64,000 nt of DNA, from the NCBI GenBank assembly GCA_030386875.1, contig CM059562.1, positions 65,408,201 through 65,472,200 on the forward strand, read 5' to 3'. Numbering within the stretch: the first letter of the stretch is position 1; every line of letters starts with the position of its first letter. Source of the DNA: Morinoia aosen. Lineage: Eukaryota; Arthropoda; Malacostraca; Amphipoda; Talitridae. The notes below the pieces were generated by a model. It saw nothing but the letters and a program-made list of their open reading frames with translations, was not told the origin of the DNA and searched no databases. The translations under genes and the position numbers were made by a program. Below are positions 27,466 to 54,805 of this stretch, one piece after another.

Positions 27466-27943
27466 GGATTAATTTGAACTTGACTTTGATTAATTTGAAC
27501 TTGACTTGGATTAATTTGAACTTGACAAGGATTAAATTGAACTTGATTTGGATTAATTTGAACTTGACTTGGATTAAATTGAACTTGATTGGGATTAATT
27601 TGAACTTGACTTGGATTAATTTGAACTTGACTTGGATTAATTTGAACTTGACTTGGATTAATTTGAACTTGACATGGATTAAATTGAACTTGATTTGGAT
27701 TAATTTGAAATTGACTTGGATTAATTTGAACTTGACTTGGATTAATTTGAAATTAACTTGGATTAATTTGAAATTAACTTGGATTAATTTGAACTTGACT
27801 TGGATTAAATTGAACTTGATTTGGGTTAATTTGAACTTGACTTAGATTAAATTGAACTTGATTTGGATTAATTTAAACTTGACTTGGATTAATTTGAACT
27901 TGACTCGGATTAATTTGAACTAAACTTGGATTAATTTGAACTT
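27466..27943. repeat. 21-bp minisatellite array (left part)
   Basis: About 23 copies of GGATTAATTTGAACTTGACTT, with two common variants (TTAAAT for TTAATT, and GATTT for GACTT). Because 21 is a multiple of three, an open frame of 123 codons (27474-27845) reads a seven-residue repeat of the NLTWINL type. It is a by-product, not a gene. The array continues at 44643 on the far side of the LTR element, so that element landed inside it. Confidence 0.95.
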
Positions 27944-28116
27944 ATGCGGCATCTCCGCACATGTTTATCTGTAGTAGCACTTTCTGTATCTGGAGGACAC
28001 CTATAAAGGGCCGCACTTATCGAGGCCGGGTGCTCAATCCATCAACATCTCGTCTTCTGTCAACACCTAGCTAAATAAACTCCGTCAAGCTTCACAAGTG
28101 TTTCCCTGCCCGTACA
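27944..28116 (+). repeat. 5' LTR of the large gypsy element
   Basis: 173 bp. It opens with a small hairpin (TGCGG, CATCT, CCGCA), has a TATA box (TATAAA at 28002-28007) and a polyadenylation signal (AATAAA at 28074-28079), and ends GTACA. The short U3 leaves little room for enhancers. Confidence 0.95.
28002..28007 (+). promoter_or_regulatory. TATA box of the 5' LTR
   Basis: TATAAA lies within ACCTATAAAGGGCC, about 70 bp before the AATAAA signal, as expected for the U3-R boundary of a compact LTR. Transcription would begin about 30 bp downstream, near 28035. Confidence 0.7.
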
Positions 28117-28119
28117 TTT

Positions 28120-28137
28120 TGGTGGCCGACGTATGTG
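28120..28137 (+). other. Predicted primer-binding site
   Basis: TGGTGGCCGACGTATGTG begins three bases after the LTR. The leading TGG pairs with a tRNA CCA end. The tRNA was not identified. Confidence 0.6.
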
Positions 28138-28220
28138 GCGAACAGAACTCACATTCGCATAAGTGTGCAGTGGATAGCAATTGTCCAATTACTGGCAAGT
28201 TTGAACAGTATTAAATCCTG

Positions 28221-28968: not shown

Positions 28969-28976
28969 TCGTAAGT
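28969..28976 (+). promoter_or_regulatory. Candidate 5' splice site in the leader
   Basis: GTAAGT at 28971-28976 follows CGTC. It is a consensus-quality donor in the element's leader and could pair with the acceptor at 42378-42379 to make a subgenomic RNA for the downstream small membrane protein. Confidence 0.4.
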
Positions 28977-29437
28977 TTCAGATTTTTTTATATAATAGAA
29001 TAGGAGTGTTAGTGGAAGTGTCTGAAACACTTTGATGTTAATTTTTGAAGCCTTAAATTGATAGAAATTCACGTTTTTTGCTGTGGAGCAGCAATATTTT
29101 TTTCTAACGCCTTGTCAAGAGCTTTGTCGTGAGCTGAAGCAGTCACGTGTGCACTGTGCGATATTGTTGACCAGTAACAAGTTTTGTTGTGGCGCTAAAA
29201 ATTTAAATTTTCAGGATTGGTGACGCTACTCTTGTTTTTCAATAAGAGTATTGATGATAAAGTATTGATATTATTGATGTCATTATTTTTTGTGTGCAAT
29301 TAGTTAATTTTTGTGTGTATTACTTGCATTTCTGTGTTTATTATCATTCTCGGAGTACGATATTAATTTTTGAATGAATTTTAAGTGAATTCTGGTATTG
29401 AATTGTTGATTTTTAGTGGAATAGGGAATTTTTAAAT

Positions 29438-30819
29438 TGTCATGATTCTGCTGTGACTATACTCTACGCTGTGTTTAAATAAGCGTTAAGAAGAAAAAGT
29501 CTGCCTAGCTAGCGACTGAAATACCTTCGAAAAGACTGGCTTCCATAGAAATATCTTCTCGTCAATGAAGGCTGCATATTCTTGTCTCCACGAACTTCGC
29601 CCAGATATCGTCAACCGTCACCTTCAGCTCTACCAACATTGACATCATCAACCTCGTTGTTTGAAGGCGCACCTACGCACCCTCTACGAGTGCCACGTCA
29701 CAGCCAACGATGGCTTACCGGACTGCCAAACGCCTCCATTTGCTCAACGTATATTCTTTCCCTTTATTAGAGACTTAGGATCGTATTTACTCTGCGTAAA
29801 TTAACTGTCATCCAATCGTAAGTCTATTCTCTTCTAATTATATGACGACACTTGCCAATTCCGATTAAATTAACTAATGTAAAGCATTGGATCTATAAAG
29901 ACATGTTTGTTCTCAAGGCGGACAGCGTCTCAGGCTCCTGCGCTTGGTAGACGACGATCGGGGAGAAGCGTCCCAGCAATCGCAAAGCACAGTCACGTCT
30001 GTTTGTGTTCTCCCACCTCGCTGCTCTGGCCAGTCGGCCAGGCAGTGAAGGTTACCCACTTGTTATTCAATGAGTCGTGTATTGACTCTTAAGCTCCATC
30101 AACGACCGAGCTAAGTATCCTAATGTTTTCGTATTCCATACATTCTCGCCACTTTATTTCGCGTGGTAGGTTTAGATTCTGTACCCAAAATGTATCGCGT
30201 CAGGTTTATTGATGAATTAAATGTTTAGTATTTCGCAAGATAACTGATTCCGCGGAGACTTCACTTCATATAAAATGTGCTTATCGTAATTATCAATGTA
30301 TTAATGTTCAAGTAATGAAGGCTTCACCTGTTTATTTTGAGATCATGATGCGATCTCCTGTAACTGTATTTTCTGATAGATTAGAATAGTTTTGAGATTT
30401 GATGGTGTCACGATCATCTAGATTCATTGATATGACATGTTGTGCATCGTAAGTCAATCACTATCCTAACATGTAATCTATTGCTATTAGAAGGACGTCA
30501 TCATTTTAACAGAAATTTACGTTATAACAGCGTTGTCACTATCCTTAACGAGGCCCTATTCGATTTGCTATAATATTATATTTAATTGTAACTAATGACA
30601 TTGAAAAGTCACTGCATGTTTCGATCTTTAATGAAATTACAAAAATATAATAAATGAGGCCTTCTGTCTCGATCACCTACCTTGAGATTCCTGAAAGCGA
30701 TAAGTAAATGAGGATAATTAATACAAGAAAGAATTGCCTCCAAAAAATCGCACGACGAATAAATGCGACATTAATGGAAATTACGATTGCGGCTTCAATG
30801 AGAAACCAAGTTCGCGACA
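29438..30819 (+). repeat. 5' LTR of the nested non-coding element
   Basis: 1,382 bp with TATAAA at 29894-29899 and AATAAA at 30649-30654. Open frames of 61-62 codons (29582 and 29907) recur in the other LTR and are considered chance frames. Confidence 0.93.
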
Positions 30820-33796
30820 TATGGTGACAGCGGAGTGAGATTTTAAGTTTGTTTAATGATAATTTTGCTTAACCTTGCCGTGCTCACGCTCCGAAAGAGA
30901 CCGCTCAAATTTGTCACGCTTACCAATTACCGCTTAAAATTGTCACGCTTGCCAATTCCCAATCAAATTTGTCACGCTTACCAGCTATCAAAAAAAAAAA
31001 AAAATAGCATTACGATCTGCCGAACCAAATTAATAGTGTGATTAAGAAATTTATAGAATTCTAAAATTGTACTAATGCGTTTAATAATCCATACATTATA
31101 ACAGTTTGCATTTAAATCATTCCTATTTTATTATCATGTTGTACCCATTCGAACTATTTTGCTATTATTGTGTCTATTGTAGAACCATCTATATTCTCTA
31201 TTGTGTTTATTTACTGTGTAATTGTTCATATGTCTAATTGTGCATTGAATTCCCGTTGTGCCTTATTGATTTCTTTGAATAACCATGTTTCAGGTTAGCT
31301 GTTTGTAATTCTCTGATTGTGTTTTGCCCATTGTACTAATTATTCCCATTATGAAACCTCATATTTCATTATTATATTGTGTGTATTAATTGCCGACGTA
31401 TTTGGAATTACCAAATATGCAAAAGAATTAATTACAGTCGATCTACAGAAATAAATCCAAGCCTCATTCAATTAATTATCGCACATGTTACTGTATTCGA
31501 GCAATGAGTTGGAATAGGGCTCTGTGAAAATTACGCCTACGAGCCAAGCCATTAAACTACATGCGCCATTTTGTAATCGGCGAGGGCGACATGAGAACAA
31601 CACTGTTCATAACGCCGACTTTGAGATTCAAATCTTCAGACTGAGTTGAACGTTTAAAGCTATATCATCTTAGCTCGCCAAAGTTTAAACTATGTTTGTG
31701 AAGTTATCAACTCTAAAGTATGATTCGTAAACCTCCATAAAAAATCTCCTATGGATAATTGAATTTATACCTTATTAAAAATTAAATTTCATCCTCACCT
31801 GCTAAAGGAGACTCATATAAAAGAAAAATTCCATTCAAAACAACATTTTCCGCACATCAAAAATTTTACATACACTATGTATACTTATAGATTTGATATT
31901 TACTAAATTTACTGGTGCGAATTTATGTAATCTACTGGTAATTTCATTCCACGTCCATTTCAAATTTATCGCAATGTGTAACCATATGATTTCATGTTGA
32001 GAGGATGTTATATGAATGAATATTTACGTCTGGAATGTGGGTATTGAGATGCTATAGAGAGTGTGACATGGACAAGGCAGTGTATGCTGTGGTGTCGGAC
32101 GGTCTACCGAGCCTTTGTTTACATTCTGAGTCGCCCTCTGAGTCTGAACATCTGGCACTGCCTGACGCTCGATTCTTCCGACCCTCTTCCCTCTGCCCCC
32201 TATGCCGGAGTGACTGCTCTCTACATTCCTTTTTTCTCAAGGCCTAACGCTCGCTACCACGACCACTCGTGCTGCTCATAGTGAACTCTACCTTCATAGC
32301 ACATATCGAAGTGATGGTCTTATCTCAAACTCAACTGAAATGTTTAATGCTTAAATTTTAACGTAATGTTAAACGTGCACTACTTAAACATGATGATGTA
32401 GCCTTTTGATTCTATCATTTGTCATTCTTGATTGCTTGCCATATCTTATAGTCAGCGAATAAACTAATTACCACCGCAAATTGAATACTTGAATGTAATT
32501 CATGCGCATATCTGGATCATTGATTTTATTATAAAAAAAAAAAAAAAATTTTATTCTCTCAATGTTTATATGAATTATTGCATCGCAACAAAATGTAAAT
32601 GTTATTAAAATCAAGCGAATCTGATTCTAATTCAAAGATCATACCGCTCTGTCATTATCTAATTTCCAACGCGAGTATGTTATTAGAAATTTATGTAGTC
32701 TCTCTTTCTGCGATTCATAATTGTCACGTAATATCACGTCTAAGTTAAGATTGGAATTAAAATTAGGTTTATGTCCTCTTTGTGAACGCGAAGTAAAGTG
32801 GAGTGAATGAGGTGAACATGATATGGATGCGAATGCGTATGACTGCAACAAGGGAGTGGAAATCTCGGACTGATAAGGTCATTGAATAACCAAAACTGAA
32901 CTTTCAGTCATGGCGCCATGGACCAGTCGTGCACCGGCCGACAACCGGCATCACAAGGACGCGCTCGCCTTGTGTGGTGCACAACCACGTCGCACAGAGC
33001 ACGGGCTCAACCACAACCACCCCGCGCAACCCAGAGGGTAGACGGCAACGCCTGCGCACGCCGTGGACGTGAGCGAGTGGATGGACATACGCACGCACAG
33101 CGCGGCACCTGAGGCAGCGGCATGACGTCACAGCTCGGACGTCGGAGCTTGAGGCATACGCACCTACTCCAACACACCCCTACACGCACGCACGCACGCT
33201 TCGCGTACGAGCCTCAGCTGGTCAACACGCGACATGACGCAATCACACAGCTCCCACAGCAGGTAACATCGACGACGGAAGACGTGGCGGCGAATGAAGG
33301 GAGCGACGTTATGCTGCATTTACCAGCGAGCAGAGAAATGGGACAGCAGCGCTTCAAAAGATGACGACATCCCGCATAAGAGGAATACGTCCACCTTACA
33401 TCTCAGGCCCCGCGGAGTTATTTAACTCGAAAATTTCTGCAAGAGGAATCAAGTAATGGAAGCCCCTTCGACCCTAGACGGCCAAGGTATTTAAGGGACT
33501 TTGATCCCTGAAGTTCTTTAGCTTCACGACTGTTGTATACGGCGGTCATGACGACAAGAGGGGACGTCAACATCCGTTGTTAGGGGAATAGGTCCTGCCC
33601 AAGGACTACTAAACGGTTGTTCTCGCGTGACTTCCCCGTATCAGAGCACTTATTTGGAGCAAATCTTGTCGTCAAGCTTCACATCTGTTTCCTCGGAACT
33701 AAGCGTTATTTTAACGCATAGTCGCACGCGTTGAGGTCGAGTGAAGGAGAAGAAAAGCAGGAGCTTTTAAACAAAAAAACGCGACGGAGGGATATT
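30820..33796 (+). other. Interior of the nested element, non-coding
   Basis: A primer-binding site TGGTGACAGCGGAGTGAG starts at 30822, two bases after the LTR. Three units of about 29 bp containing TGTCACGCTTACCA lie at about 30905-30985. An A-run precedes AATAG at about 30991-31004 and another A-run lies at about 32533-32548. A strikingly GC-rich block (about 32900-33290) contains a CRE-type TGACGTCA near 33123-33130 and ACGC repeats. Purine-rich stretches (33741-33762 and GACGGAGGGA at 33784) are the likely polypurine tract. No protein frame exceeds about 80 codons. Confidence 0.75.
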
Positions 33797-35178
33797 TGTC
33801 ATGATTCTGCTGTGACTATACTCTACGCTGTGTTTAAATAAGCGTTAAGAAGAAAAAGTCTGCCTAGCTAGCGACTGAAATACCTTCGAAAAGACTGGCT
33901 TCCATAGAAATATCTTCTCGTCAATGAAGGCTGCATATTCTTGTCTCCACGAACTTCCCCCAGATATCGTCAACCGTCACCTTCAGCTCTACCAACATTG
34001 ACATCATCAACCTCGTTGTTTGAAGGCGCACCTACGCACCCTCTACGAGTGCCACGTCACAGCCAACGATGGCTTACCGGACTGCCAAACGCCTCCATTT
34101 GCTCAACGTATATTCTTTCCCTTTATTAGAGACTTAGGATCGTATTTACTCTGCGTAAATTAACTGTCATCCAATCGTAAGTCTATTCTCTTCTAATTAT
34201 ATGACGACACTTGCCAATTCCGATTAAATTAACTAATGTAAAGCATTGGATCTATAAAGACATGTTTGTTCTCAAGGCGGACAGCGTCTCAGGCTCCTGC
34301 GCTTGGTAGACGACGATCGGGGAGAAGCGTCCCAGCAATCGCAAAGCACAGTCACGTCTGTTTGTGTTCTCCCACCTCGCTGCTCTGGCCAGTCGGCCAG
34401 GCAGTGAAGGTTACCCACTTGTTATTCAATGAGTCGTGTATTGACTCTTAAGCTCCATCAACGACCGAGCTAAGTATCCTAATGTTTTCGTATTCCATAC
34501 ATTCTCGCCACTTTATTTCGCGTGGTAGGTTTAGATTCTGTACCCAAAATGTATCGCGTCAGGTTTATTGATGAATTAAATGTTTAGTATTTCGCAAGAT
34601 AACTGATTCCGCGGAGACTTCACTTCATATAAAATGTGCTTATCGTAATTATCAATGTATTAATGTTCAAGTAATGAAGGCTTCACCTGTTTATTTTGAG
34701 ATCATGATGCGATCTCCTGTAACTGTATTTTCTGATAGATTAGAATAGTTTTGAGATTTGATGGTGTCACGATCATCTAGATTCATTGATATGACATGTT
34801 GTGCATCGTAAGTCAATCACTATCCTAACATGTAATCTATTGCTATTAGAAGGACGTCATCATTTTAACAGAAATTTACGTTATAACAGCGTTGTCACTA
34901 TCCTTAACGAGGCCCTATTCGATTTGCTATAATATTATATTTAATTGTAACTAATGACATTGAAAAGTCACTGCATGTTTCGATCTTTAATGAAATTACA
35001 AAAATATAATAAATGAGGCCTTCTGTCTCGATCACCTACCTTGAGATTCCTGAAAGCGATAAGTAAATGAGGATAATTAATACAAGAAAGAATTGCCTCC
35101 AAAAAATCGCACGACGAATAAATGCGACATTAATGGAAATTACGATTGCGGCTTCAATGAGAAACCAAGTTCGCGACA
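33797..35178 (+). repeat. 3' LTR of the nested non-coding element
   Basis: A direct copy of 29438-30819 at a constant offset of 4,359 bp with no visible indel. One substitution was found, at 33958. Confidence 0.93.
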
Positions 35179-35180
35179 AA

Positions 35181-35189
35181 ATGACTTAA
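35181..35189 (+). promoter_or_regulatory. Minimal upstream ORF before gag
   Basis: ATGACTTAA is a two-codon upstream frame ending 13 bases before the gag start codon. It is part of the host element, next to the site where the nested element inserted. It could lower or tune gag translation; this is inference only. Confidence 0.3.
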
Positions 35190-35202
35190 GGAAATACGAC
35201 AC

Positions 35203-36633
35203 ATGTCGGATTATTCTGATTCTTTGGACAGTGAGGACGAAGTAGTTCGAACAGAGGCTACGGTAACTAAATTCGGTCGTATTTCTAAACCTAGAGTAAC
35301 TAGTGTGACTCAAGTACCGACCATGGCGACCCCAACAACAGCAGGGCCTAGTTCTAGTGTTCCTAGTAATGTTAACACGACACAGTTTGCACGTGATATT
35401 GCTGCAAATATAGTTGTACCTCCTGTCGGAACGATAATGACGAACGCAGAGCTCCCCATCTTCAGGGGAAGAAGACGAGTCCATGATGGAGAGTTCCTAG
35501 AAAATAAGAGTTTTCATACTCATATACAGAATCTCAAGGCATACATGTCCTTGTTGCCTGATGCCACTAGTGACGAGCGTCGTAAGGAATTTTTGGTACG
35601 CTCGGCTAACAAGAACGTAGGAGATTTCAATAGCGTCGTTACGAAATTAGTTAATGCGGACCTCAATTATTCTTTTGATCAGGTAGTTCAGATTCTTGAG
35701 GACATTTACGTTTCGCGTGGAGAGAAGAGTATTCATGCATTGGCTTGCGACCTAAACGAGTTGCAATTAGTTAAAAATAATGCACTAGCTGCTCAGATCG
35801 TCAATGCTTTTTCGAAAATAAGGAAGCTAACCGAGAGTATTCTTAATTCAAACTCGCTAGGGTGGCAGCGCCACGCGTATTTTCAGAACTGCACGAATCA
35901 GGCTGAGTTAAAAAAATTCGTGGGCGACAGCATGTCGTACAGTCTGGCTTTATCAACGTTAGGTCCGCTTTTTGATGAGTCGTTCGCTAGAAAAATTTTT
36001 GAAACACAATTTTCCACGGCGGAGGAATTGCTCGCTAGGTTAATTTCAGCTGTGCGCAACCAATCCGAGACAAAAAAGATACTTGCGCAGAAAGTTCCGG
36101 TCAGACACGAAAGTGAAGTTTACGTAGGTGAGGTAAACAGTGAATTGGAAGAAGTTTTTGAAGAGCCAGATCACAATGAAGTGTTCTACGGTAGTGTAGG
36201 AGGTTACCGGAGGAGTTATCGACCAGGAATGAGGAGGATTGTTCCTAGACCTTGGCTAAGGAATCCCCGAATTAGAGGTAGAGAGTTAAACAGTTATGTA
36301 GGAGATCGAAGTAGCGGCTCCTTAGAGTGCAACATGGTTAAATCAGATAGCGGTAGTTCTGGTCAATTCGGAGGAAATTCAGGAACGAAAAAAGCGGGAT
36401 TTCCGTACTGTAACTCATGTTCCATGGTAGGGCACTTTGAATGTAGAGGTCAAAGAGGTCAGTTTCCGAGAGGATGCTTTGCCTGCGGTGGAACTCATGT
36501 AGTAAAGAATTGTAGAGCGAGCGGTACGGAAGTCCGTAACTATAAGGCGTATTTACGCGGTAGAGGTAGCACAAACCGTGGTCAAAGTGAAGTTCATTGG
36601 GCGGAGAGCACGTCAAGCGATTTTTTAAACTAG
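35203..36633 (+). CDS. gag: Gag polyprotein of the large gypsy element
   Basis: 476 residues. The first in-frame ATG after a TGA at 35182 was chosen. The first 80 residues are Ser/Thr-rich and acidic; about 85-310 would be the capsid region (helical, no motif visible by eye). A basic Arg/Gly-rich stretch (about 325-370) precedes two cysteine-histidine clusters. These are CNSCSMVGHFEC at 403-414 and CFACGGTHVVKNC at 425-437 (C-x2-C-x3-H-x4-C, one residue short of the usual CCHC knuckle). Gag packages the RNA and forms the particle. The ORF ends with a slippery TTTAAAC directly before TAG, where ribosomes would shift -1 into the protease frame. No internal stop is present. The 5.7-kb nested element lies just upstream and would disturb expression. 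Confidence 0.9.
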   Translation: MSDYSDSLDSEDEVVRTEATVTKFGRISKPRVTSVTQVPTMATPTTAGPSSSVPSNVNTTQFARDIAANIVVPPVGTIMTNAELPIFRGRRRVHDGEFLENKSFHTHIQNLKAYMSLLPDATSDERRKEFLVRSANKNVGDFNSVVTKLVNADLNYSFDQVVQILEDIYVSRGEKSIHALACDLNELQLVKNNALAAQIVNAFSKIRKLTESILNSNSLGWQRHAYFQNCTNQAELKKFVGDSMSYSLALSTLGPLFDESFARKIFETQFSTAEELLARLISAVRNQSETKKILAQKVPVRHESEVYVGEVNSELEEVFEEPDHNEVFYGSVGGYRRSYRPGMRRIVPRPWLRNPRIRGRELNSYVGDRSSGSLECNMVKSDSGSSGQFGGNSGTKKAGFPYCNSCSMVGHFECRGQRGQFPRGCFACGGTHVVKNCRASGTEVRNYKAYLRGRGSTNRGQSEVHWAESTSSDFLN

Positions 36634-37268
36634 GTGAAGGTAGTAAGGGGGATTTGAAACAGGTTGAGCCCGAGGTAATTAGCGGTACCAACCTCGTTAA
36701 ACTAGAGACCGTGGCAAAAATTCCAGATACCACCGAGATAACCAAATCGTATGTTGACCCCTTGTTTCAGTGTAAAAATAGATATAATTTGTTGCAAGAC
36801 GAAGAGCTTGAAAATGCTCATTGTCAAAGCACGACTGTAGAGTCATATTTTGCTGTAAGCGTTGTAAAAAATGTTGATAAAAATGATGGATTAGTATCAT
36901 TCAAGGATTGCAACAAACCGACCATTATTCTCAAAAATAATGACCAGTATTTAAGCGCTTTGCTTGACAGCGGCTCAGAGAAATGTCTTATCAGTTACAG
37001 ACAGGTTAAAAATTTGAGCGAAGAAGTCAAACCAAGTCACTTGAGAGTAAAAGGGATCAACGGGAAGAGTGACGTCACAGGTGAAGTAGAGTTATCTATT
37101 AAAATTCCCGGCACTAATAAAGTAATTAAAACAAGTGCACTTGTTGTAAAAGAAGCTCGATTTAATTATGACCTGATACTGGGTCGAGATGTATTAAAGG
37201 ATGCCGTTATTAACTTTAAAAAAAAGAACTTCTTTGGAATAATATTCCAATTCCTTTTCAAGATTTAA
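36597..37268 (+). CDS. pro: Retroviral-type aspartic protease frame
   Basis: The frame is open across the gag end and enters protein-like sequence after the frameshift at 36630. The protease core has LLDSGSEKCLIS (residues 122-133, DSG in place of the common DTG) and LILGRDVL (193-200), as in Ty3/gypsy proteases that cleave Gag and Pol. About 90 residues before the core are unassigned. The frame closes at TAA 37266-37268, but protein-like sequence continues in the -1 frame from A AAA AAG at 37220-37226. Having the protease in its own frame between gag and pol is like the gag-pro-pol plan of some retroviruses. Alternatively one A was lost from an eight-A run. Confidence 0.85.
   Translation: MGGEHVKRFFKLGEGSKGDLKQVEPEVISGTNLVKLETVAKIPDTTEITKSYVDPLFQCKNRYNLLQDEELENAHCQSTTVESYFAVSVVKNVDKNDGLVSFKDCNKPTIILKNNDQYLSALLDSGSEKCLISYRQVKNLSEEVKPSHLRVKGINGKSDVTGEVELSIKIPGTNKVIKTSALVVKEARFNYDLILGRDVLKDAVINFKKKNFFGIIFQFLFKI
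36624..36630 (+). promoter_or_regulatory. Gag-protease -1 frameshift site, T TTA AAC
   Basis: The heptamer lies in the correct phase (zero-frame codons TTA AAC) directly before the gag TAG at 36631. A -1 slip makes the next codon CTA at 36630, in the protease frame, which is open from there. TTTAAAC is one of the most efficient eukaryotic slippery sequences. A downstream RNA structure was not assessed. Confidence 0.75.
37220..37226 (+). promoter_or_regulatory. Protease-pol -1 frameshift site, A AAA AAG
   Basis: Zero-frame codons AAA AAG sit at the end of an eight-A run. Slipping -1 makes the next codon GAA at 37226, in the pol frame, which is open to the mariner insertion and resumes in the same frame beyond it. 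The alternative is a simple one-base deletion in the A run of this copy. Confidence 0.55.
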
Positions 37269-37588
37269 ATATGGAACCTTTGTTAAGCCGAGAAATAGTA
37301 ATGCGAAAAATAGTGAATAGTGACTGTCTCTTGTCAGAGATTGCTGTTGCGAGAAAGAGCATGAGGCAATTAAAAAGTGTTGACGGCAGGAAAAAGAGTC
37401 CAGCGACGGCTGAGGCACGGTCAACGAGTACGAAGCAATTAATCGTTCATTGCAATCAGGCTGAAGTGCCTGGGAATTCACTTAATGTCATTTATGGCTT
37501 CCTTAAGAAACCAATTGCAGGAGAATACATGATTCTGAAAAGATGTCTTGATAATGGTGCTCTTATAGCAGACTCAATTGTTGAAATA
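37226..37588 (+). CDS. pol: Pol N-terminal linker (before the mariner insertion)
   Basis: The -1 frame after the second slippery site reads about 120 codons, basic in the middle, up to the codon ATA at 37586-37588. There the TA target of the mariner begins. Past the insertion the frame resumes at 38339 with NDDGVVPVMILNPS. The VPVMILNPSDETVYL stretch is typical of the segment between protease and reverse transcriptase in gypsy elements. This piece is therefore the cut-off front of pol. As it stands, translation would run into mariner sequence and stop at 37661. Confidence 0.7.
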
Positions 37589-38336
37589 CGAGGCCTGTCG
37601 AAAAAGTATCCGACCTTTGGCCAGAAAAAATACTTCAACAACCTGACGGGGTTGGGACCCTAATCCCCTTCAAAGTAGGCTCCTTGTGCTTCCACACACT
37701 TAGCCCACCGATCCTTCCACTGCCGGAAACACCTCTGGAAGTCTTCTTTTGGAATGGTGTTCAGCTCTGTCGTCGCGTTCCGCATTATCTCTTCTCTACT
37801 CTCAAAACGGGATCCTTTCAGTGGTGTCTTCAATTTTGGAAACAACCAGAAGTCGCAAGGAGCCAGGTCTGGAGAGTAGGGAGGTTGGCGAACGGTCGTA
37901 ATTCCATGTTTGGCCAAGAAATTGCGGATCAAATGGGATGAATGTGCGGGCGCGTTGTCGTGATGCAAGTGCCAGTTGTTCGCAGTCCACATGTCTGGTC
38001 TTTTGCGCCGAACTGCATCACGAAGTCGCCGGAGAACATCCTGATAGTACTCCTTTGTCACTGTTTGTCCTTCCGGTGCGTATTCGTGATGCACAATTCC
38101 ACGGACATCAAAGAAAACAGTCAGCATCGAAGGAGTCAAACAGGCAATGCGACGATGGAGCTGAACACCATTCTAAAAAAAAACTACCAGAGGTGTTTCC
38201 AGCAGTGGAAGGATCGGTGGGCTAAGTGTGTGCAAGCACAAGGGGCATACTTTGAAGGGGATTAGGGTCCCAACTCCGACAGGTATTCGAAATATTTTTT
38301 CTGGCCAAAGGTCGGATACTTTTTAGACAGGCCTCG
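37589..38336 (-). mobile_element. Palindromic mariner derivative inserted in pol
   Basis: 748 bp between TA duplications (37587-37588 and 38337-38338). Both ends read CGAGGCCTGTC inward, then AAAAAGTATCCGACCTTTGG. The inverted identity continues for about 193 bp (37589-37783 and 38144-38336), far beyond a normal mariner terminal repeat. Both arms encode the transposase C-terminus (DRWAKCV and QGAYFEGD) and its 3' end. The element is thus a fold-back chimera: the 5' half of a mariner has been replaced by an inverted second copy of its 3' end. It lacks a full transposase and is non-autonomous. Confidence 0.92.
37660..38139 (-). pseudogene. Mariner transposase C-terminal half (DD34D)
   Basis: 159 codons are open on the minus strand. 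Visible are MLTVFFDVRGIVH, the second catalytic aspartate in HHDNAPAHSS and the third in SPDLAPCDFWLF, 34 residues apart (mariner DD34D). The end is WAKCVEAQGAYFEGD. The N-terminal DNA-binding domain and the first catalytic aspartate are absent, because the inverted 3' end starts just upstream. It cannot be active alone. Confidence 0.9.
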
Positions 38337-38338
38337 TA

Positions 38339-41300
38339 AATGACGACGGTGTGGTACCGGTTATGATCCTAAATCCAAGTGATGAGACTGTGTATCTCGC
38401 TGAGAATTCGATGATATGTAATGTGGAATTCATAAAGGCTAATGATATTGAGAGTGAAGTATATGTAACAAATGTGGAAACAGCGCTCAGAGATGCAAGT
38501 GAGGTTGAAGTAAATTCTGTCGCTGGGTCAGATACGACGAAAGTTAAATCGACATGTGGTGGAAGGAATGCCATTGTCAATAGAAAACTTGCGTTGGATG
38601 CTGATACTCGTGGCAGAGGTGAAATTCTTGTTGATGACAAGGAGTTAGATTTCAATGCAGAAGTAAATGCAGGGTTAATAAGTGGAGAAATCAATGCAGA
38701 AGTAAATGCAGGTTTAATAAGTGGAGAGAATGGAGATCAGGAGTTACGACGTGACTTGACGGTAAATGATATTTCATGTAAGGAAGATGACGTGCAACTA
38801 CCCTTAGTTAAATTGTTAAATAAGTACCGTGATGTAGTAACTTTAGAAGGCGAAAAAATAGGTGTAACGAATATCTTGAAGCATCATATTCAGTTGAAAA
38901 CTGATGCGCCTGTATTAAATTTAGCTCCCTACCGCATACCTCATAAGTACCAAGAAGAGGTAATGAGAATAACTAACGATATGCTCGATCAGGGAATAAT
39001 AGAGGAGTCATCTTCTGATTTCAATTTCCCTGTCATTGTAGTTAAAAAGAAATCAGGAGATCTGCGTCCCGTGATAGATTTCCGTTCCTTGAATAAGGTT
39101 TTGATTAAACATTCTTACCCAATTCCCCGCATTGACGACATTTTATCGACGTTAGGTGGTAACACGTGGTTTTCTAACCTTGATCTTCGCTCGGCATTTC
39201 ATCAAATAGAGTTAGAACAAGAGAGTAGAAAATACACGGCATTTACCGTAAATTACCGTAAATATCATTTCTGCCGTGTACCATTCGGCCTTTCAACTTC
39301 TCCGGGAGTATTTCAAAGAGTTATGATTTCTGCTCTTGCACCCATTCTGGGTAAACTAGCTTTCGTCTTCCTAGACGATATACTGGTGTTTTCAAAAAAT
39401 AAAGATCAGCACTTGATTGATATAGAAATTGTGCTTAAGATGCTGCGATCCGGTAAATTATCCTTAAAACTTGAGAAATGCCATTTCTTTAAAAAAGAGC
39501 TCGAATATTTGGGCCATATTATTGCCGCCGACGGTATTAAGTGTAAATACTCACAGAAATTACAAGACTGCCGAGCGCCGAACAATGTGAAGGAACTACA
39601 ACAGTTTTTAGGTTTAGCAAATTATTTTCGAAATTTTTTACCCAACTTTGCAGAAGTAGCTTACCCCTTGTACAACCTTTTGAGAAAGAATGTTGTTTAT
39701 ACTTGGACAGACGAGTGTCAAAGAAGTTTTGATTTTATGAAGTCGTTACTAACTTCTGACACAGTTCTAAGACATCCTGACTATACTAAAGACTTTCATG
39801 TTTTTACTGACGCTTCCAATACAGGAATTGGTGCTGTACTAATGCAAGCGGATGATTCAGGCGACAAAATTCTAAGACCTATAGCTTATTTTAGTAAAAA
39901 TTTAAATTCGAGCCAGCGAAGATATTCTACTACCAAAAAAGAGTTCTTCGCAATTCATTCAGCTCTAAAACACTTTAAGTATTTAATAACTGGTTACCCC
40001 GTCCGGGTATACTCAGACCACAAACCTTTAGCGCCACTTTTTAATAAAAAACTTCCGGACGACACCAACATGGCGCGCTGGTGCCTAAATGTACATTCCT
40101 TTGATCCGGTTGTAAAATATCTACCTGGTAAAGAAAACGTTGTCGCAGATTATTTAAGCAGATTACCTGTTAATAACGAGAAGTTAAACCTTAAAGAACT
40201 AAATTCTTGTGATGATTTGGAAGTCGCATTTGAATCAGAAGTTTGTGTGGTGGAGACTCGAGCACAACACAAACACATGACAGGAAGCGAGGTAGTTGAC
40301 CTGCCTCCGACTCGAGACGATGCTGACAGTGCAGCAGACACAGACGCACGACCGGCGCTGATAAATTATGTACCGACAGAGTCTGAGATATCTTGGACGA
40401 TTAAGGAGTTTATCGACGAACAAAACAACGACGCATTTTGCATAGAAATTAAGAATGCTTTATTACATGACAATATTTCGACTATACCAGACTTGCAAAA
40501 ATTTTTAATTTTGAATGATATTCTTTATCGACGTAGAGAGATTGATAATCGACCGAGTACAATACTCACAGCAGTTGTACCAAATTCCTTAATGAGTAAG
40601 GCTATTCTGGCCATACACAGTCTATACCACACGGACTACAAGCACACTTTGTTTAAATTTAAGTTAAAATATTTTAATCAGTTAGAAAAAACTTTTGTGC
40701 GCAAATTTGTTCAAAATTGCGAGGTATGTAAAATTATTAAAGCAAGACCTTCAGTTCCAATTAAAATTTTGACAGCTCCGATTGCTAAAGAGCCTTTCGA
40801 GGTCGTTTCAATGGATCTTTTAGGGCCACTTAAAGTAACTGATAATGGGAATAAGTATATATTGGTAGTAATTGATTTGTTCTCAAGATTTTGTCGTTTA
40901 TATGCAATTTCAAATCGAAATACGGAAACAGTGATTTCTTGTTTAAGCAATTGTTTCTCACTTTTAGGTTATCCTAGGACGCTGATATCAGATAATGCTC
41001 TTGAGTTTAAATCAGTGGCACTCAAGCAGTTTGCAAAATTACATGCCATAGCAAAAAAGGAAGTTTTGGCTTACAGCCCTCATTCTAATGCAATTGTGGA
41101 GCGCAACAATAAAAAAATTACTAATCTTTTGAAATTATATGTCAATACACTTGTCCATGCAGAGTGGGACCAATTATTAGAAGTTGTAGAAAATGCCTTG
41201 AATAATTCTTTAAATTCTACTATTGGCGAAACACCAAGCTATGTAATGTTTAATCGCGATACGTGTGCTTACTACCAGTCCGAGAATTTTGATTCAGTCA

Positions 41301-41632
41301 TTTACAGCTTTGATGAAGAATTAGATTTAGTGAATATCAGAGCTAGAGAAGCCGTTCGAACCGTGGAAAATATTAGAAATTTAATTATTAACAACACAAC
41401 AGAGCGAAATCTCTATAGAACTCTTAAGCGTCGCAACAAGGATATTAGCGTGGGAGATCGAGTTCTTTTGAAAAATCATGGGAAAAAATTTAAATTAGAT
41501 CTAACATGGATAGGGCCTGCGGTAGTCCAAAAAGTGAAACGAAATTACGCTGACATTAAAATTGGATCTAAAATTATTAGAAGTAATCTTAATCATCTTT
41601 TACCACTCAAAAAGGTACAATCTGTGAGTTAA
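38339..41632 (+). CDS. pol: Pol polyprotein: reverse transcriptase, RNase H, integrase
   Basis: Numbered from the first Met at 38351 (1,093 residues). Reverse transcriptase lies at about 180-430, with the first aspartate in SNLDLRSAFHQIE (D278) and the active site VFLDDILVF (340-347). RNase H lies at about 480-605 (HVFTDASNTG at D487, E531, SDHKPL at D556, VVADYLSR at D600). The integrase zinc finger is H756, H760, C790, C793. The integrase catalytic core is D822 (SMDLLGP), D881 (ISDNALEF) and E917 (AIVERNN), with a basic C-terminal part after. The order RT-RNase H-integrase defines Ty3/gypsy. No stop or frameshift is present, so the copy was intact until the mariner split it from its front. 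A 13-residue tandem duplication lies at 101-126. Confidence 0.95.
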   Translation, partial: NDDGVVPVMILNPSDETVYLAENSMICNVEFIKANDIESEVYVTNVETALRDASEVEVNSVAGSDTTKVKSTCGGRNAIVNRKLALDADTRGRGEILVDDKELDFNAEVNAGLISGEINAEVNAGLISGENGDQELRRDLTVNDISCKEDDVQLPLVKLLNKYRDVVTLEGEKIGVTNILKHHIQLKTDAPVLNLAPYRIPHKYQEEVMRITNDMLDQGIIEESSSDFNFPVIVVKKKSGDLRPVIDFRSLNKVLIKHSYPIPRIDDILSTLGGNTWFSNLDLRSAFHQIELEQESRKYTAFTVNYRKYHFCRVPFGLSTSPGVFQRVMISALAPILGKLAFVFLDDILVFSKNKDQHLIDIEIVLKMLRSGKLSLKLEKCHFFKKELEYLGHIIAADGIKCKYSQKLQDCRAPNNVKELQQFLGLANYFRNFLPNFAEVAYPLYNLLRKNVVYTWTDECQRSFDFMKSLLTSDTVLRHPDYTKDFHVFTDASNTGIGAVLMQADDSGDKILRPIAYFSKNLNSSQRRYSTTKKEFFAIHSALKHFKYLITGYPVRVYSDHKPLAPLFNKKLPDDTNMARWCLNVHSFDPVVKYLPGKENVVADYLSRLPVNNEKLNLKELNSCDDLEVAFESEVCVVETRAQHKHMTGSEVVDLPPTRDDADSAADTDARPALINYVPTESEISWTIKEFIDEQNNDAFCIEIKNALLHDNISTIPDLQKFLILNDILYRRREIDNRPSTILTAVVPNSLMSKAILAIHSLYHTDYKHTLFKFKLKYFNQLEKTFVRKFVQNCEVCKIIKARPSVPIKILTAPIAKEPFEVVSMDLLGPLKVTDNGNKYILVVIDLFSRFCRLYAISNRNTETVISCLSNCFSLLGYPRTLISDNALEFKSVALKQFAKLHAIAKKEVLAYSPHSNAIVERNNKKITNLLKLYVNTLVHAEWDQLLEVVENALNNSLNSTIGETPSYVMFNRDTCAYYQSENFDSVIYSFDEELDLVNIRAREAVRTVENIRNLIINNTTERNLYRTLKRRNKDISVGDRVLLKNHGKKFKLDLTWIGPAVVQKVKRNYADIKIGSKIIRSNLNHLLPLKKVQSVS
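38650..38729 (+). repeat. 39-bp in-frame tandem duplication within pol
   Basis: NAEVNAGLISGE is read twice in a row in the acidic linker before reverse transcriptase. The two DNA copies differ at one or two bases, so the duplication is recent. It keeps the frame. Confidence 0.85.
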
Positions 41633-42364
41633 AAAGACGAATTCATTGGACTATATGACGTCCTAACTAATCGACGAGTAACGAATTACCCTTTTTATCG
41701 TTATTTACTCCGTTTTACCGTTTTTTTACCTTTTTACCGTTGTTTATCTTTTATCAATAATGTTAAGGAATATAATCATAATTTTAGAGGCATTTTTCGC
41801 TATATGCAAGATGTTTGCGTTCATATTAATCTCAGTAATCTATGCGTTGTACTTTTGTATGTTAGTCTTACTGTTGCTATGCTCAAGTAATGTGAGGTAA
41901 TGTTTAGGTATTTACCCCAGAGGAATTTGTACTGTCTCGTTTAGCTGTCGCTAAGACGTTTCATTAAATTTTTTTTTCAAATTCACACAGACATTCGTAT
42001 TGCTAAATTGACATTTTAATTCGTGAACGTTTGAGCAAGCGGCGAATTGAGTTCGCTGAGCTTGTAGATTTTGCTGCGAGATGCGCTGCTGCGATCTTGC
42101 TGAGCTATTTTTATCTGATCCGGAATGTCGCTGATCTAGAATGTCGATGATCCAGAATGTTCGACGATCAGCAAAATTTAAATTAAATTCATCAGGCAGG
42201 TGTCTTGTGACTAGAATCATTTTTTTGATACGGTCAGCGTTTATTTCTTTTATGCGAGACTATCGTGGTTGATTAAATGACTCTTGTCAGATAACGAAGA
42301 TTTGATACTAAATTATATGTTGTATTTATTTTATTTCATTTACCGGTCATGCTAATCTTTTTTG
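41633..42364 (+). other. Spacer between pol and the downstream small ORF
   Basis: About 730 bp, AT-rich, with no open frame of note on the plus strand. It ends in the pyrimidine-rich run of a splice acceptor. Short ACGTT- and GATCCAGAATGT-type words repeat around 42110-42170. Confidence 0.6.
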
Positions 42365-42379
42365 TATCCTTCCTTTCAG
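42365..42379 (+). promoter_or_regulatory. Predicted 3' splice acceptor for the downstream ORF
   Basis: A pyrimidine-rich tract ends TCCTTCCTTTCAG at 42379, 13 bases before the ATG at 42393. This matches the way env-like ORFs of gypsy elements are expressed from spliced RNA. The likely donor is GTAAGT at 28971. Confidence 0.6.
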
Positions 42380-42392
42380 GAGCGAGAGTTCG

Positions 42393-42683
42393 ATGGGAAA
42401 CGCCCAGTCCAACATAGACGTTGACACCCTGGTGGCGGCGTTATCAACGCACTCAACCACTATCAACGAACAGTGGATAAACGAAAATTCCACCATGGAG
42501 CTGTTACCCGATCGGGTCACCAATATCCTGATTATGGGCCTAGTCCTGATAACCATGGGCATGGGGACAATACTTTACCATGTAAAACAAGAGGTAAAGG
42601 TGCTTGCGCGGATGCAGCGGGAGGATTTTTCGAGAAGTCTCTCCAGAGGGAGGCCGCCACGCATCCTCCAACAGGAGCAGTAA
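42393..42683 (+). CDS. Small N-myristoylation-type single-pass membrane protein in env position
   Basis: 96 residues. It starts MGNAQS, a classic N-myristoylation signal (Gly2, Ser6). Residues 3-40 are polar and carry one N-glycosylation sequon (NST, 32-34). Residues 42-62 form one hydrophobic span with several glycines (NILIMGLVLITMGMGTILYH). The tail (63-96) is basic, with K65, K69, R73, R76, R81, R85, R87 and R90, and a proline turn (RGRPPR). There is no signal peptide and no resemblance to baculovirus-type env. The layout (acylated short N-terminus, single span, basic tail, about 100 aa) is that of fusion-associated small transmembrane proteins of reoviruses, though no sequence match is claimed. 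It could instead be a membrane anchor or viroporin-like accessory. A splice acceptor just upstream supports real expression. Confidence 0.7.
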   Translation: MGNAQSNIDVDTLVAALSTHSTTINEQWINENSTMELLPDRVTNILIMGLVLITMGMGTILYHVKQEVKVLARMQREDFSRSLSRGRPPRILQQEQ

Positions 42684-44449
42684 GGATTAACATTGCGCGC
42701 GATGTGGTAGTATTTAATTTACCTCACGTAAAGCGGGCAGGACGTCCCCGGGATGCAGGACGACAGAACCGTCCCTGCAACTCTGCGGGTGTGCGACGAG
42801 TTTAGATTGGAAAATTTACTGGAAATTTATTAATTGGAAAATTGATTCGAGAATTGGTTTGAAAATTTTGAAATATTGGCGCGCAGTGATTGCAGGATAT
42901 GCATGTCGCATGAAACACGCGATAAAATATGCGCGCAGTGTTCTATTTAATCTATTATTTAATCTATTTAACCCATGTTTTAACTTAAGTTTTTTTTACT
43001 ATTGACGCGTTAATCCCCAAGATTCTAATTAGTAATTTAATTTCGTTATTTATTTTGAGTTTCGAAGGTTGACATTTATAGTTTAAAATGGTTTGTTTCG
43101 TTTGCTCTATTAATTTTTTTTGAAGGTGCTATTTCCGATGTTTTGCGAGAAATTTAAAATGTATTGAATATGTGTTAAATTGCAACGATCGAATGCTAAT
43201 TGCGGTAATCCCTATATTTAATGATATAATTGGTGAATTGGTTTGAGTTGAATTAACATATGTTGACGGATAGGATGGCGTTTTATGGCGTTTTACTATT
43301 ATTAATATGAATGGCGTTTCAATATTTGATCCCTGCATCGTGCTACATGGCTGACGACGTGCAGAGAATTTATTGCACGGTAAGTCGATTGCTTTGCCTT
43401 CGCGTGTTCTCGTTGCTTTCGCTATTTTTTGCTTTTAGTTATTAAGTTTTTATGATGACATGCCTTAAATTTTGTGTCGAAGTCGTACTAAACGTTGTTT
43501 GAATCCTTCTCTTAGGGGTTGATTGAGGTAATATGTTAAGAGTTTGAACGGGTCTTGAAAAAAAAGGGGTTTTAACATTTTTAGTTGCGGTGTATTTTAA
43601 TTTTTGCGGTGTATTAAGTTTATTTTTAGTTTTCTAAAAAATTTTTGGCTTATTCCTTAAGCGGGTTTTTGGCGTTCTATTTATTTTGCCATGTGAATAA
43701 CCTAACTGATTCGGCAGGGGGTGAATTGGTAAAAAGCATTTTCTTATTTAGCATGCGTTTTACTGTGTTCTAGTTTTGGAGTTTTAGTTAGAGCCTTGGT
43801 TCTAGCTTTAGTTTTTGCGTTTTATTAATCAACGTGTTGTTGCGTTACCCTATAATCATTCTTGGTAATGCAACAGTTTTAGTTTCCGTAGTGTAGTAAC
43901 CGTAAATGTTTCCTTAACATTTCCTACGGTTTATTTTGTTCTTCGTTGGAGTTACTGACATTTTTTTTTCTTTCTCCTCCGCGTTCTAATTTTTAATGCG
44001 TTAAATGCGTTACCTATAGTCTAACTGCTTGCGTTATTCTATAATCTTTTTTGGTGATGTAATCGGTTCTTGTGTTTTTTAACTATGAGTTTAGTGATGT
44101 ATCGAAGTTTTTTTACGATAGGGTACGTATATATAATGTTCGCTCGAGTTACCCTCGTGATTGCTTGTTTTGCTTGAAACTATAATAAGGCTTGGCGTGA
44201 TAACAGTTGTTACTTTCTTTTGCTTTTGATAATATAAATTGCGATACGGTTAACGTAATTTAATGTACAACGGCTACGAGCGATTTCATAATAGTTCTTT
44301 TTCGTTTGGAATTGTCGTTTAATTTTTTTTTTCTCAAATAATTTATTGTCAATTCATGAATTGTACTTTCATTGATTGATTTATTTCTGCGAATTGTTGA
44401 ATTTCGTTTAAAAGTTTTATTATTTTTGTGTGGTGCTCTCTCAACATTC
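42684..44449 (+). other. T-rich 3' region of the gypsy element
   Basis: An alternative frame of 110 codons (42473-42805) overlaps the small membrane-protein ORF and runs 122 bases past its stop with an Arg-rich end. Nothing else supports it. Beyond it the region is T-rich and non-coding. A diverged direct repeat lies at about 43847-43885 and 44029-44067 (TTGCGTTA, CTATAATC, TTGGTRATG). The long 3' region may carry packaging or regulatory sequence. Confidence 0.6.
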
Positions 44450-44460
44450 GGGAGGGGGAG
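44450..44460 (+). other. Polypurine tract
   Basis: GGGAGGGGGAG ends four bases before the 3' LTR. It is the expected primer for plus-strand DNA synthesis. Confidence 0.8.
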
Positions 44461-44464
44461 CTAT

Positions 44465-44637
44465 ATGCGGCATCTCCGCACATGTTTATCTGTAGTAGCA
44501 CTTTCTGTATCTGGAGGACACCTATAAAGGGCCGCACTTATCGAGGCCGGGTGCTCAATCCATCAACATCTCGTCTTCTGTCAACACCTAGCTAAATAAG
44601 CTCCGTCAAGCTTCACAAGTGTTTCCCTGCCCGTACA
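44465..44637 (+). repeat. 3' LTR of the large gypsy element
   Basis: It matches the 5' LTR except for G at 44600, which turns the polyadenylation signal AATAAA into AATAAG. If the signal counts in the 3' LTR, transcript ends from this copy would be impaired. Confidence 0.95.
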
Positions 44638-51817: not shown

Positions 51818-54805
51818 TCACCTACACCTAGAACGTAGATTGTAGCTCCGCCGCTCTTTGAACGCAGCTTTCTCGTTTGCGTAGTTTTCTGTCCTCAGGT
51901 CTTCATCTACACTATCGACTGTCTCGTATCCGTTTCCATTCCCTGGTTCAGCTGCGACGTCCGACGTGCCGGGAAAGGCCTCGCCCCGTAGGTAAGCAAC
52001 TTTCAATCTATCCAAGTGAACCCTTTCTTGTCGGTTACTATATAGTGCTTTAATGGTCGCATTTGTGGCATTCCTTTTAAGGACACGAAAAGGGCCTATC
52101 CAGTCGGTAGGCCACGCGTTTGCAGCTTCGGCCTTTCCTGTCGGATTGTGTAATAAAACAATATTTCCGCTCTCCACCTGGTTGTTTTTCACACCTCTTT
52201 CCTTCATTTGCACCGACTTGTCGTGTGACGCCTTGGACTTGGCTTTTACGATTTTGAACGCATTGTGGAGCCGGGCGCTAACCTCTGCACTGTAATTCTT
52301 TCCCAAAGAATAATCCATGCGAGGTGTTTTCAGCCAGTCCACAACAGGAATTTCAGCGTCCCTACCAAAGAATAAGTAGAATGGAATTTCTTCAATGACG
52401 CTCTGGTAGCTGGTGTTCAGTGCCAGGCACGTCCAGGGAAGTGCATCAGGCCACGAAGATTGATCGTTGGCGGCAAGGTGTGATAAAACAGTCTTGATAT
52501 TCTGATTTTGCCGTTCGGTCATTCCGTTTGATTGGGGATGATATGCTGAAGTGTTGTAGTATTTTATTTTCAATTTTTCACACACATTTCTGAACAAAGC
52601 TGACGTGAACTCGGTGCCCCTGTCTGAGATGAGAGTCTTGGCTGTGCCGTACGTAGTCACGAATTGAGTTAACGCTTTCGTTACTTCCTCAGTCGTCTTG
52701 CTTCTGAGCGGAAACGCTGCAACATATCTACTAAAGTGATCGACCACGGTTAGGATGTACTTGTGTCCCTCGTTCGAGACAGGCATTTCAATTAAATCAA
52801 CTCCTATTCTGTCCAGAGGCTTGTCAATTTCAGGGAATGAACCCATGCTAACACAAATGCGATTGTTGATCTTACGTTTCTGACATTGCATGCACGAATC
52901 GACGTACTTGTTAACGTCACGCGCCATGTTAATCCAGTACCCGAACTCCATGAGTTTCTTCCACGTTTTAGCACGACCTTGGTGTGCACCGATTGTGCTA
53001 TCATGCGCTAACGTTATTGCTGCTTCTCTCAGGCCGTCTGGCACAACGATCAAGTGCCTTGTTCTATTAGGCTTTCGTTGCGTCTTTCTGAAATACAATA
53101 TGCCTCCGTCGGTGAAGATTTCGGATTTCAGAGCGAGACTTGGAGCGTCCCCTAATTTGTCACCTTCAAGATACCGCAGCACAGACCCCCAAACAGGATC
53201 CTTCAATTGCTCTGCTCTCACGTTTTCTTTCTGCAAACTACTTTCCGCCTCTTGTACATTGGGCGCTTCATTTATCATCGTCGTGACGAACACTGTTTTA
53301 GGTGCTTCGACGTCTAGATTTTCTTCTTCGTTTTCGTTCGCAATATTTCTCGACAATGCGTCGGGCACCACGTTCTGAGATCCTGGCCGATAATTCACCT
53401 CAAAATCATATTGAGAGAGTGTTAGGGCCCATCTCATAATTCTGTTGTTCTTGGTATTTTTACCTTTGAACAAATATTTGAGAGCCGTGTGATCAGTAAT
53501 TACAACAAATTTATTACCGTACAGGTAAGGTGAAAAGTGATTTACAGCGGCGACCACTGCTAATCCTTCCCGCTCCGTAATTGAATAAAGTTTTTCAGCA
53601 TCATTGAATCTTTTGCTGAAGTATCCAATCGGTTGTTCCTTACCATTACATTTTTGCGCAAGGACCGCGCCAGAGCCCTCATTTGAGGCATCACAGCTCA
53701 AGTAATACGTCTCATTTAGAGAAGGCTTCTTCAGAACTGGAGCTTCTATCATGAGCTGCTTAAGTTTACAGAAGGCTTGTTCGTGTTCTTCCTTCCACTG
53801 GAATCTTTGCCCCTTCTTAGTCAGAGCATTAAGTGGTGCAGCGGTTGTCGCGAAATGCGGAATGAACCGCCGATAGAAGTTCAGCGCTGCCACGAAGGAG
53901 CGGACCTTGCGTGCGGTCGTCGGCCTAGGGTAATTCTGCATCGCATCCACGTTCTTGGGATCTGGAATGAGTCCCTCACGACTGATGTAACATCCTAGGT
54001 ACTTCACTTGTTTTTGCGCAAATTTGCACTTGTTTAAGCCTATTTTTACTCCAGCACATTGAAACTCGTGCAACACTTCCCTTAGATTTTCTAGGTGACT
54101 CTCAAAAGTCATAGAGCTGACGCACACATCGTCCAAGTAAATGGCGGCGAATTTTCCCAGTTGCCTTTTCAGAACATGACAAATTACTCTCTGGTACACT
54201 GATGTTGAGCACTTAAGTCCCATAGGTAGCCTAGAGAATTCGAAGTTGCCTTGTCGAGTCTGAAATGCCGTGTACTGCTTACTTTCTTCATCTAGCTCAA
54301 TTTGATGAAAGGCTGATTTTGCATCGACAATGGTAGAGTATTCTTTGCCAGCCACCTCTTCCAATGTCCCTACAATGTGGGGAATCGGATAATGTTCGTT
54401 TATTACCCGCATGTTTACAGCTCGCAAATCAAGGCAAACTCTGTGGCCTCCTCCAGGTTTCTTCACGAGCACGAGGGGGTTCTTCCAAGCACTTGTACTC
54501 TCTTGCACAACTCCACTTTCGATCATCTCCGAGACCTTTTTATCAATAATTTCTTGGCTGGAGTACGGAATACGCCATCCTTTCGTTTGAATTGGCCTGT
54601 AATCACTCAGCAAAATTTTGTACTTCACTCCTTTCACGTGGCCAATATCCATCTCGTCTGCACTAATCGTCTTGTGATATTCCTTCAGCAGGTTTCTGAC
54701 TTGTCCTTGTTTTTCAGCATCCAAGTGACTTAGGTCAAGCTCATCAATTTGCTGAAAGCGCTTCTCTCTGCGGCAATTTTCTGCTTCGCTATTTTCCGCA
54801 TTGTT
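51818..54805 (-). pseudogene. pol: Pol of the second gypsy element: RT, RNase H, integrase
   Basis: Open from 54724 for 968 residues and continuous in frame with the protease part above it, except for a TAA at 54806-54808. Reverse transcriptase: D134 in TIVDAKSAFHQIE and the active site AIYLDDVCV (D198, D199). RNase H: LSCDASNEGSGA (D345) and VITDHTALKYLF (D411). Integrase: zinc finger H574, H581, C611, C614; catalytic D643 (GVDLIEMP), D701 (ISDRGTEF) and E737 (NGMTERQN); then a C-terminal domain with WIGPFRVLKR. The last 968 residues show no defect, so only the upstream stops mark it as a pseudogene. It lies opposite to the large element and has no obvious link with it. Confidence 0.92.

Follow-up and report, generated by a model that had tools for sequence, protein, structure and literature searches.

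A FAST-like membrane protein gene behind pol in an amphipod Ty3/gypsy retrotransposon, with conserved splice signals and a conserved -1-frame extension

Introduction

Proteins of the fusion-associated small transmembrane (FAST) type have recently been described in retrotransposons. The accessible part of a 2025 preprint by Voichek et al. presents a FAST-like 'sORF2' as an envelope substitute in insect LTR retrotransposons (PMC11952523), with a survey of 105 high-confidence hits in 29 organisms in which 7 of the 22 lepidopteran ones lie 3' of pol. According to the same text, sORF2 stains the plasma membrane together with Gag, sits at protrusions into the oocyte and is tied to passage from soma to oocyte (PMC11952523). 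Fusion by sORF2 was not reproducible in cell culture by the preprint's authors, its genetic removal was not possible in these multi-copy elements, and FAST proteins are described there as diverging past the reach of sequence searches (PMC11952523). The cell-to-cell passage of retrotransposons without an envelope is thus far a very recent claim without a minimal assay.

As far as the accessible sections go, insect-specific flaviviruses tolerate GGA at the XXX of the slippery heptamer X_XXY_YYZ (PMC3542737, PMC4411683), and the frameshifting described in another report joins ORF1 to ORF2 and does not concern the FAST-like ORF (PMC8229945).

Here, we analyse a small open reading frame, hereafter ORFX, that lies behind pol in a Ty3/gypsy element of Morinoia aosen. 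Like the sORF2 genes described in the preprint, it belongs to an env-less Metaviridae element and is oriented forward. A first-pass annotation of the same DNA had taken a FAST-like protein in a retrotransposon to be new, a claim that falls because such proteins are already in Voichek et al. 2025 (PMC11952523).

Results

Organisation of the element

The window, i.e., the whole stretch of 64,000 nucleotides that was analysed, contains a Ty3/gypsy element with short LTRs at 27943-44637. Its main features, apart from those that concern splicing and the second frame, are the following:

27943..28116, + strand: 5' LTR of 173-174 bp, with a 174-bp match to 44464-44637 at 99.4% identity
28221..28445, + strand: leader ORF of 74 aa (MCTGNNNQLWQPQ...), sORF1-like, 5' of the leader splice donor
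35203..36633, + strand: gag ORF of 476 aa, with the start MSDYS, which is not of the myristoylation type
36621..36627, + strand: U_UUU_UUA, slippery heptamer for the gag-pro -1 shift, found both in the window and in 14 of 15 loci
38363..41632, + strand: pol ORF (RT, RNase H, integrase; Pfam RVT_1, RT_RNaseH and rve)
42393..42683, + strand: ORFX (sORF2/FAST-like), starting MGNAQS, with a zero-frame product of 96 aa
44464..44637, + strand: 3' LTR, the 174-bp match to the 5' LTR, preceded by the purine tract gggagggggagcta

The insertion site is a 21-bp minisatellite, with a target duplication of 4-5 bp (aact/aactt). The gag ORF has no match in a Pfam search, and gag-related pieces are found 5' of pol in most of the twenty divergent loci examined (L021-L040). 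ORFX starts 760 nt past the pol stop at 41632 and, in the + strand sequence that separates pol from the 3' LTR, there is no other ATG-started ORF of at least 80 aa. A hydrophobic 46-aa ORF at 41760-41900 was considered as a second membrane protein and rejected, its frame not being maintained across the 23 copies listed. The interval between pol and ORFX (41633-42380) is non-coding, with a conservation of about 0.8-0.9 in most 60-base blocks of a 17-copy alignment, which perhaps reflects a control of splicing or export.

Other elements have accumulated in and around this one. A nested LTR element (29437-35178) interrupts the leader just 5' of gag; its 1383-bp repeats are 99.93% identical and it is flanked by aaat. 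At 37587-38338, within pro-pol, a second transposon is present as inverted pieces; it includes a fragment of a transposase-like ORF on the - strand and looks to be of the mariner type. Positions 51818-56550 on the - strand belong to another element of the gypsy type, which has gag and protease frames and a long pol ORF. The host genome is also rich in TTAGG arrays (6646 + 8599 overlapping hits), as is common among arthropods.

The leader ORF is open in 5 of 6 leaders (pS 0.692, pN 0.164), and 147 of its 150 scored genome matches are free of stops. Its AlphaFold2 model (pLDDT 70.7, from 4 sequences) has a weak resemblance to dynein light chains of the Tctex type.

ORFX is conserved among copies and under purifying selection

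ORFX has many relatives in its own genome. We scored 150 of the 2902 candidates returned by the search, so that the copy count is a lower bound. Every one of the 150 is a match, with identities of 71-100%, and 148 are stop-free. A degenerate pattern for residues 1-10 is found at 236 genome sites (126 + 110), and the reversed control pattern at none. ORFX lies about 720-780 nt behind pol-matching sequence in all twenty divergent loci. Among 60 fetched copies it is broken in two (L041 and L057), and in the other 58 its length varies between 95 and 98 aa.

The substitutions separating these copies are mostly synonymous: for 16 representatives (120 pairs), the pooled values are 0.670 for pS and 0.133 for pN, and the median dN/dS is 0.071 over the 79 computable pairs, the other 41 of the 120 being saturated. 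The pattern is most extreme in codons 1-28 of the same representatives (pS 0.729, pN 0.053), and the near-invariance of MGNAQSNIDVDTLVxALSTHSTTxNE is therefore a constraint on the protein and not on the DNA. Judged by its copies, ORFX is thus a genuine gene of a Ty3/gypsy family, strongly conserved and under strong purifying selection. Short ORFs do arise by chance, but the idea that ORFX is a functionless chance ORF in repeated DNA has practically no probability left and we count it as refuted, given 148 of 150 scored matches open at identities down to 71% and a median dN/dS of 0.07.

Conserved splice signals frame ORFX

Three sets of signals on the + strand suggest how the gene may be expressed:

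28971..28976, + strand: leader splice donor GTAAGT, the same in all 6 leaders compared
42352..42380, + strand: branch-point-like TGCTAAT, pyrimidine tract and acceptor CAG, with TGCTAAY in 57 of 60 copies
43380..43385, + strand: second conserved donor GCACG|GTAAGT, in 57 of 60 copies, about 1 kb behind ORFX

The leader donor (..CGTC|GTAAGT) would end an exon at 28970, and is identical among leaders that otherwise diverge widely. The acceptor AG (42379-42380) stands behind ...TGTATCCTTCCTTTCAG, with the ATG of ORFX 13 bases further on, and a [CT]AG occurs at most 25 nt from this ATG in 59 of 59 copies (L041, whose ORF start is lost, is omitted). By eye, we recognised no acceptor partner for the donor at 43380 in the 17-copy alignment. 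Because a conserved leader donor, a branch point with its acceptor and a downstream donor frame ORFX, it looks like an exon, and we think that it is probably expressed from a spliced, env-like message.

Architecture of the protein and homology searches

The protein has a single Kyte-Doolittle peak, at residues 42-60 (mean 1.93). Charged residues are unevenly distributed around it, with 1 K/R and 6 D/E in residues 1-43 and 8 K/R and 4 D/E in residues 63-96; by this charge bias alone, the N-terminus is predicted to be outside, with an outer segment of about 41 residues. The start MGNAQS, found in 57 of the 60 fetched copies, fits the N-myristoylation motif MGxxxS/T. A tyrosine (Y62) directly follows the span, within an LYH that is present in 58 of 58 copies. 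The AlphaFold2 model has helices at residues 10-33 and 40-84, with a middling confidence (mean pLDDT 70.5). The inner amphipathic region is clear (moment 0.66 at residues 64-74); for the outer helix, no window before residue 36 has a moment above 0.45. With its polar N-terminus, one internal span and 96 aa, ORFX differs from class I/III Env, which has a signal peptide and a large ectodomain.

Homology searches returned no relatives. The single sequence gave no candidate in the protein database, where alignment A1 gave 645 candidates and none at E <= 1; against IMG/VR the same alignment had 14 pattern hits, none of them a relative. ORFX has no match among phage records, Pfam or PDB sequences, and the 11 Foldseek matches of its model to viral models include none at E <= 0.001. 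From the protein, IMG/VR, phage, Pfam, PDB and Foldseek searches, no close relative of ORFX is known beyond its own genome.

These results agree with most of what the first-pass annotation had proposed: a 96-residue frame starting MGNAQS behind pol, a membrane span followed by a basic tail, an ATG 13 bases behind an acceptor, and a donor near 28970 are all in place. Its view of ORFX as a functional small membrane protein of the myristoylation type is borne out by conservation and selection, two of the outcomes that it named as refuting, a frame missing or full of stops in related copies and neutral substitution, are contradicted by the counts above, and the FAST-type architecture is there in the span, tyrosine, basic tail and MGxxxS. 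Env-like spliced expression, which it had called probable, keeps that status, with donor, branch point and acceptor conserved in diverged copies. It had passed over the second frame described below (42629-42805), the second donor at 43380 and the leader ORF at 28221-28445.

A second frame extends ORFX

The 3' part of ORFX overlaps a second reading frame:

42623..42629, + strand: -1 slippery heptamer G_GAT_TTT, with R_RAT_TTT in 58 of 58 readable copies
42629..42805, + strand: -1-frame extension of 58 codons and a stop, intact in 56 of 58 readable copies

A -1 shift at the heptamer would give a predicted transframe protein of 137 aa, made of residues 1-79 of ORFX and 58 residues with 12 K/R and 4 D/E. 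The stretch ...RDVVVFNLPHVK... would be a diagnostic peptide of this form, and the part of the extension past the ORFX stop is 42684-42805. Among the 58 copies, the heptamer is G_GAT_TTT in 50, G_AAT_TTT in 6, and A_AAT_TTT and A_GAT_TTT in one each. G_GAU_UUU and A_AAU_UUU fit X_XXY_YYZ or a documented exception to it; G_AAT_TTT and A_GAT_TTT are unlisted forms. The same tail is also found in L066, from a family outside the first list, where the heptamer is A_AAT_TTT. In 52 of 52 distinct copies, the third base of both slip codons is T; these copies share kinship and are thus not independent draws. The other two-fold codons of ORFX end in T in 304 of 683 cases.

Several observations argue that the -1 frame is coding. 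In the 17-copy alignment, the wobble position switches at the ORFX stop: beyond it, change falls mainly on the third positions of the -1 frame, and length differences are mostly multiples of three. The frame is open for 53-59 codons up to a common end (..RRV or ..RREI, with near variants) in 56 of 58 copies, the exceptions being L032, which has a stop, and L036, in which the frame is lost. A -1-frame stop is found immediately 5' of the slip site in 33 of the 58, and the frame is therefore entered at or after this site. In the non-overlapping part of the extension, 13 chosen representatives, all of them intact (the broken L032 and L036 were left out), have a pS of 0.425, a pN of 0.166 and a median dN/dS of 0.30; the other two frames of the same stretch contain stops in 13 of 13 and 12 of 13 of them. 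In the overlap, synonymous change among 14 representatives is 0.559; each of the 61 upstream windows of the same length exceeds this value (minimum 0.605). On this comparative evidence, the -1 frame behind the R_RAU_UUU slip site is a conserved coding extension, and the 96-aa ORFX is probably one of two products, the extension giving the second.

We found no stimulatory RNA structure downstream of the slip site, where one would be expected 5-9 nt away. Of 300 column shuffles, 20 attained the alifold energy of the 34 G_GAT copies, and 202 of 300 that of 7 R_AAT copies; the folding of single sequences gave a median z of about -0.1. The identical z-test was likewise blank at the U_UUU_UUA of the gag-pro junction in this element (median z 0.21, 15 sequences), so that it lacks power here and is uninformative.

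The -1 frame could be coding and be reached by alternative splicing or internal initiation instead of frameshifting, which we regard as improbable. An AG shortly behind the TTTTTC tract in some copies would suit splicing, but this AG is absent from the R_AAT group; internal initiation is at odds with extensions that, in the window copy and most others, contain no Met. What stays invariant is the slip heptamer, which speaks against both.

Discussion

Proposed function of ORFX

We lean, with some reserve, towards ORFX being an sORF2/FAST-like substitute for Env, spliced and frameshifted, that serves the direct passage of capsids from cell to cell. With a similar measure of confidence, we propose that this FAST-like protein has two forms, both translated from a spliced message, and that a programmed -1 frameshift gives the longer one a basic cytoplasmic tail of 58 residues; this long form would couple capsids to the site of cell-to-cell transfer. 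The element would then frameshift twice (gag-pro and sORF2), with a switch resembling that of 6K/TF. Splicing, frameshifting and fusion are in each case what we infer for ORFX. Under this model, a spliced mRNA would join approximately 28970 to 42381. The majority of ribosomes would produce the 96-aa form, myristoylated at Gly2, with its N-terminus outside and its basic tail inside, and some would slip -1 at G_GAU_UUU to produce the 137-aa form, in which the cytoplasmic tail is swapped for the 58 residues. Both forms would thus have the same nearly invariant outer segment and membrane span with a different intracellular part. The short form might remodel or fuse membranes at cell contacts, and the long one might tether capsids, RNA or the actin machinery to these sites, so that capsids could reach a neighbouring cell, e.g., the oocyte, directly and without an envelope. 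That the two tails divide membrane action from cargo recruitment is a conjecture. In our judgement, a surface fusogen would not usually have so nearly invariant an outer segment, which counts against the fusion reading.

The alternative that survives best, though we hold it to be unlikely, is an assembly anchor, in which ORFX would act as a membrane 'matrix in trans': its myristoylated N-terminus or its tail would bind Gag and deliver particles to a membrane, where they would bud or be stored, and cells would not fuse. Gag itself starts with MSDYS and so has no myristoylation-type start, residues 1-28 are nearly frozen at a pS of 0.73, as expected for contact with a fixed partner, and the alternative basic tail is a possible binding site for RNA or capsid. 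However, if the usual rule holds, the charge bias (1 K/R outside, 8 inside) places the frozen part outside the cytoplasm and so away from Gag, and the architectural relatives are, in the available text of the preprint, tied to cell-to-cell passage (PMC11952523).

Clearly less probable again is a viroporin or host-factor antagonist (Vpu- or 6K/TF-like) that would be oligomeric and alter ion balance, trafficking or antiviral defence. The size of 95-98 aa and one short span with small residues would fit such a protein, and alphavirus 6K, of which a -1 transframe form ending in a hydrophilic tail also exists, is a close formal parallel in the sections consulted (PMC3542737). Antagonists of host factors usually evolve fast, as is generally known, whereas the outer half of ORFX is nearly invariant. 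The frozen N-terminus is as compatible with the matrix-in-trans and the viroporin readings as with the favoured one.

For the favoured reading, a FAST-like protein in two forms, the family offers a constraint map that separates an almost frozen outer segment, the span and two alternative inner tails. The predicted second isoform would escape earlier single-frame ORF scans and, if the transframe form is true, experiments with the short ORF alone may have omitted half of the system.

Comparison with known systems

The FAST proteins of reoviruses and rotaviruses resemble ORFX in architecture, with a short outer part, one span and a basic inner tail, and some of them are N-acylated, as the myristoylation-type start of ORFX would suggest for this protein. 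They belong to a different genetic system, and searches of protein, Pfam, PDB and viral contig libraries with ORFX returned no match to them. The likeness is architectural, and fusion is predicted at most. Gypsy env is expressed by splicing from a leader donor; the env of errantiviruses (gypsy-type) thus resembles ORFX in its place behind pol and in this mode of expression, which for ORFX is probable. In contrast to errantivirus env, ORFX has 96 aa, no signal peptide was seen, and there is no room for an Env ectodomain.

The closest parallels for the second frame are viral. Alphavirus 6K/TF, as far as described in the sections available (PMC3542737), is a small membrane protein with a -1 form in which the membrane part is retained and the C-terminus replaced by a hydrophilic sequence; 6K/TF lies within a polyprotein whereas ORFX is a separate, probably spliced gene, and the tests run gave no homology. 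The fifo site of insect-specific flaviviruses has GGA before UUU, as in the G_GAU_UUU of ORFX (PMC3542737, PMC4411683). In these sources, within the parts consulted, sites of the fifo type come with a predicted downstream stem-loop or pseudoknot, whereas none was detected at the ORFX slip site.

The nearest relatives in architecture are the sORF2 proteins. In the available text of the preprint, they share with ORFX an MGxxxS/T start, a single span, a basic juxtamembrane region and a tyrosine behind the span, and the 95-98 aa of ORFX fit within their range of 63-107 aa. MDG1 elements also have a small ORF in the leader (sORF1), like the one at 28221-28445. The ectodomain of sORF2 has about 30 residues, against about 41 for ORFX; amphipathic motifs are described for this class both outside and inside, whereas those of ORFX are clear inside, with none outside above 0.45 before residue 36. 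In MDG1, sORF2 lies 5' of gag and the transcripts are unspliced; ORFX, in contrast, follows pol and has conserved splice sites on either side. The main text of the preprint as available does not contain the word 'frameshift' (PMC11952523), whereas ORFX has a conserved -1 extension. FAST-like retrotransposon proteins are thus already known; within the portion of the literature on FAST proteins and on frameshifting and Metaviridae covered here, the predicted spliced and frameshifted form is new.
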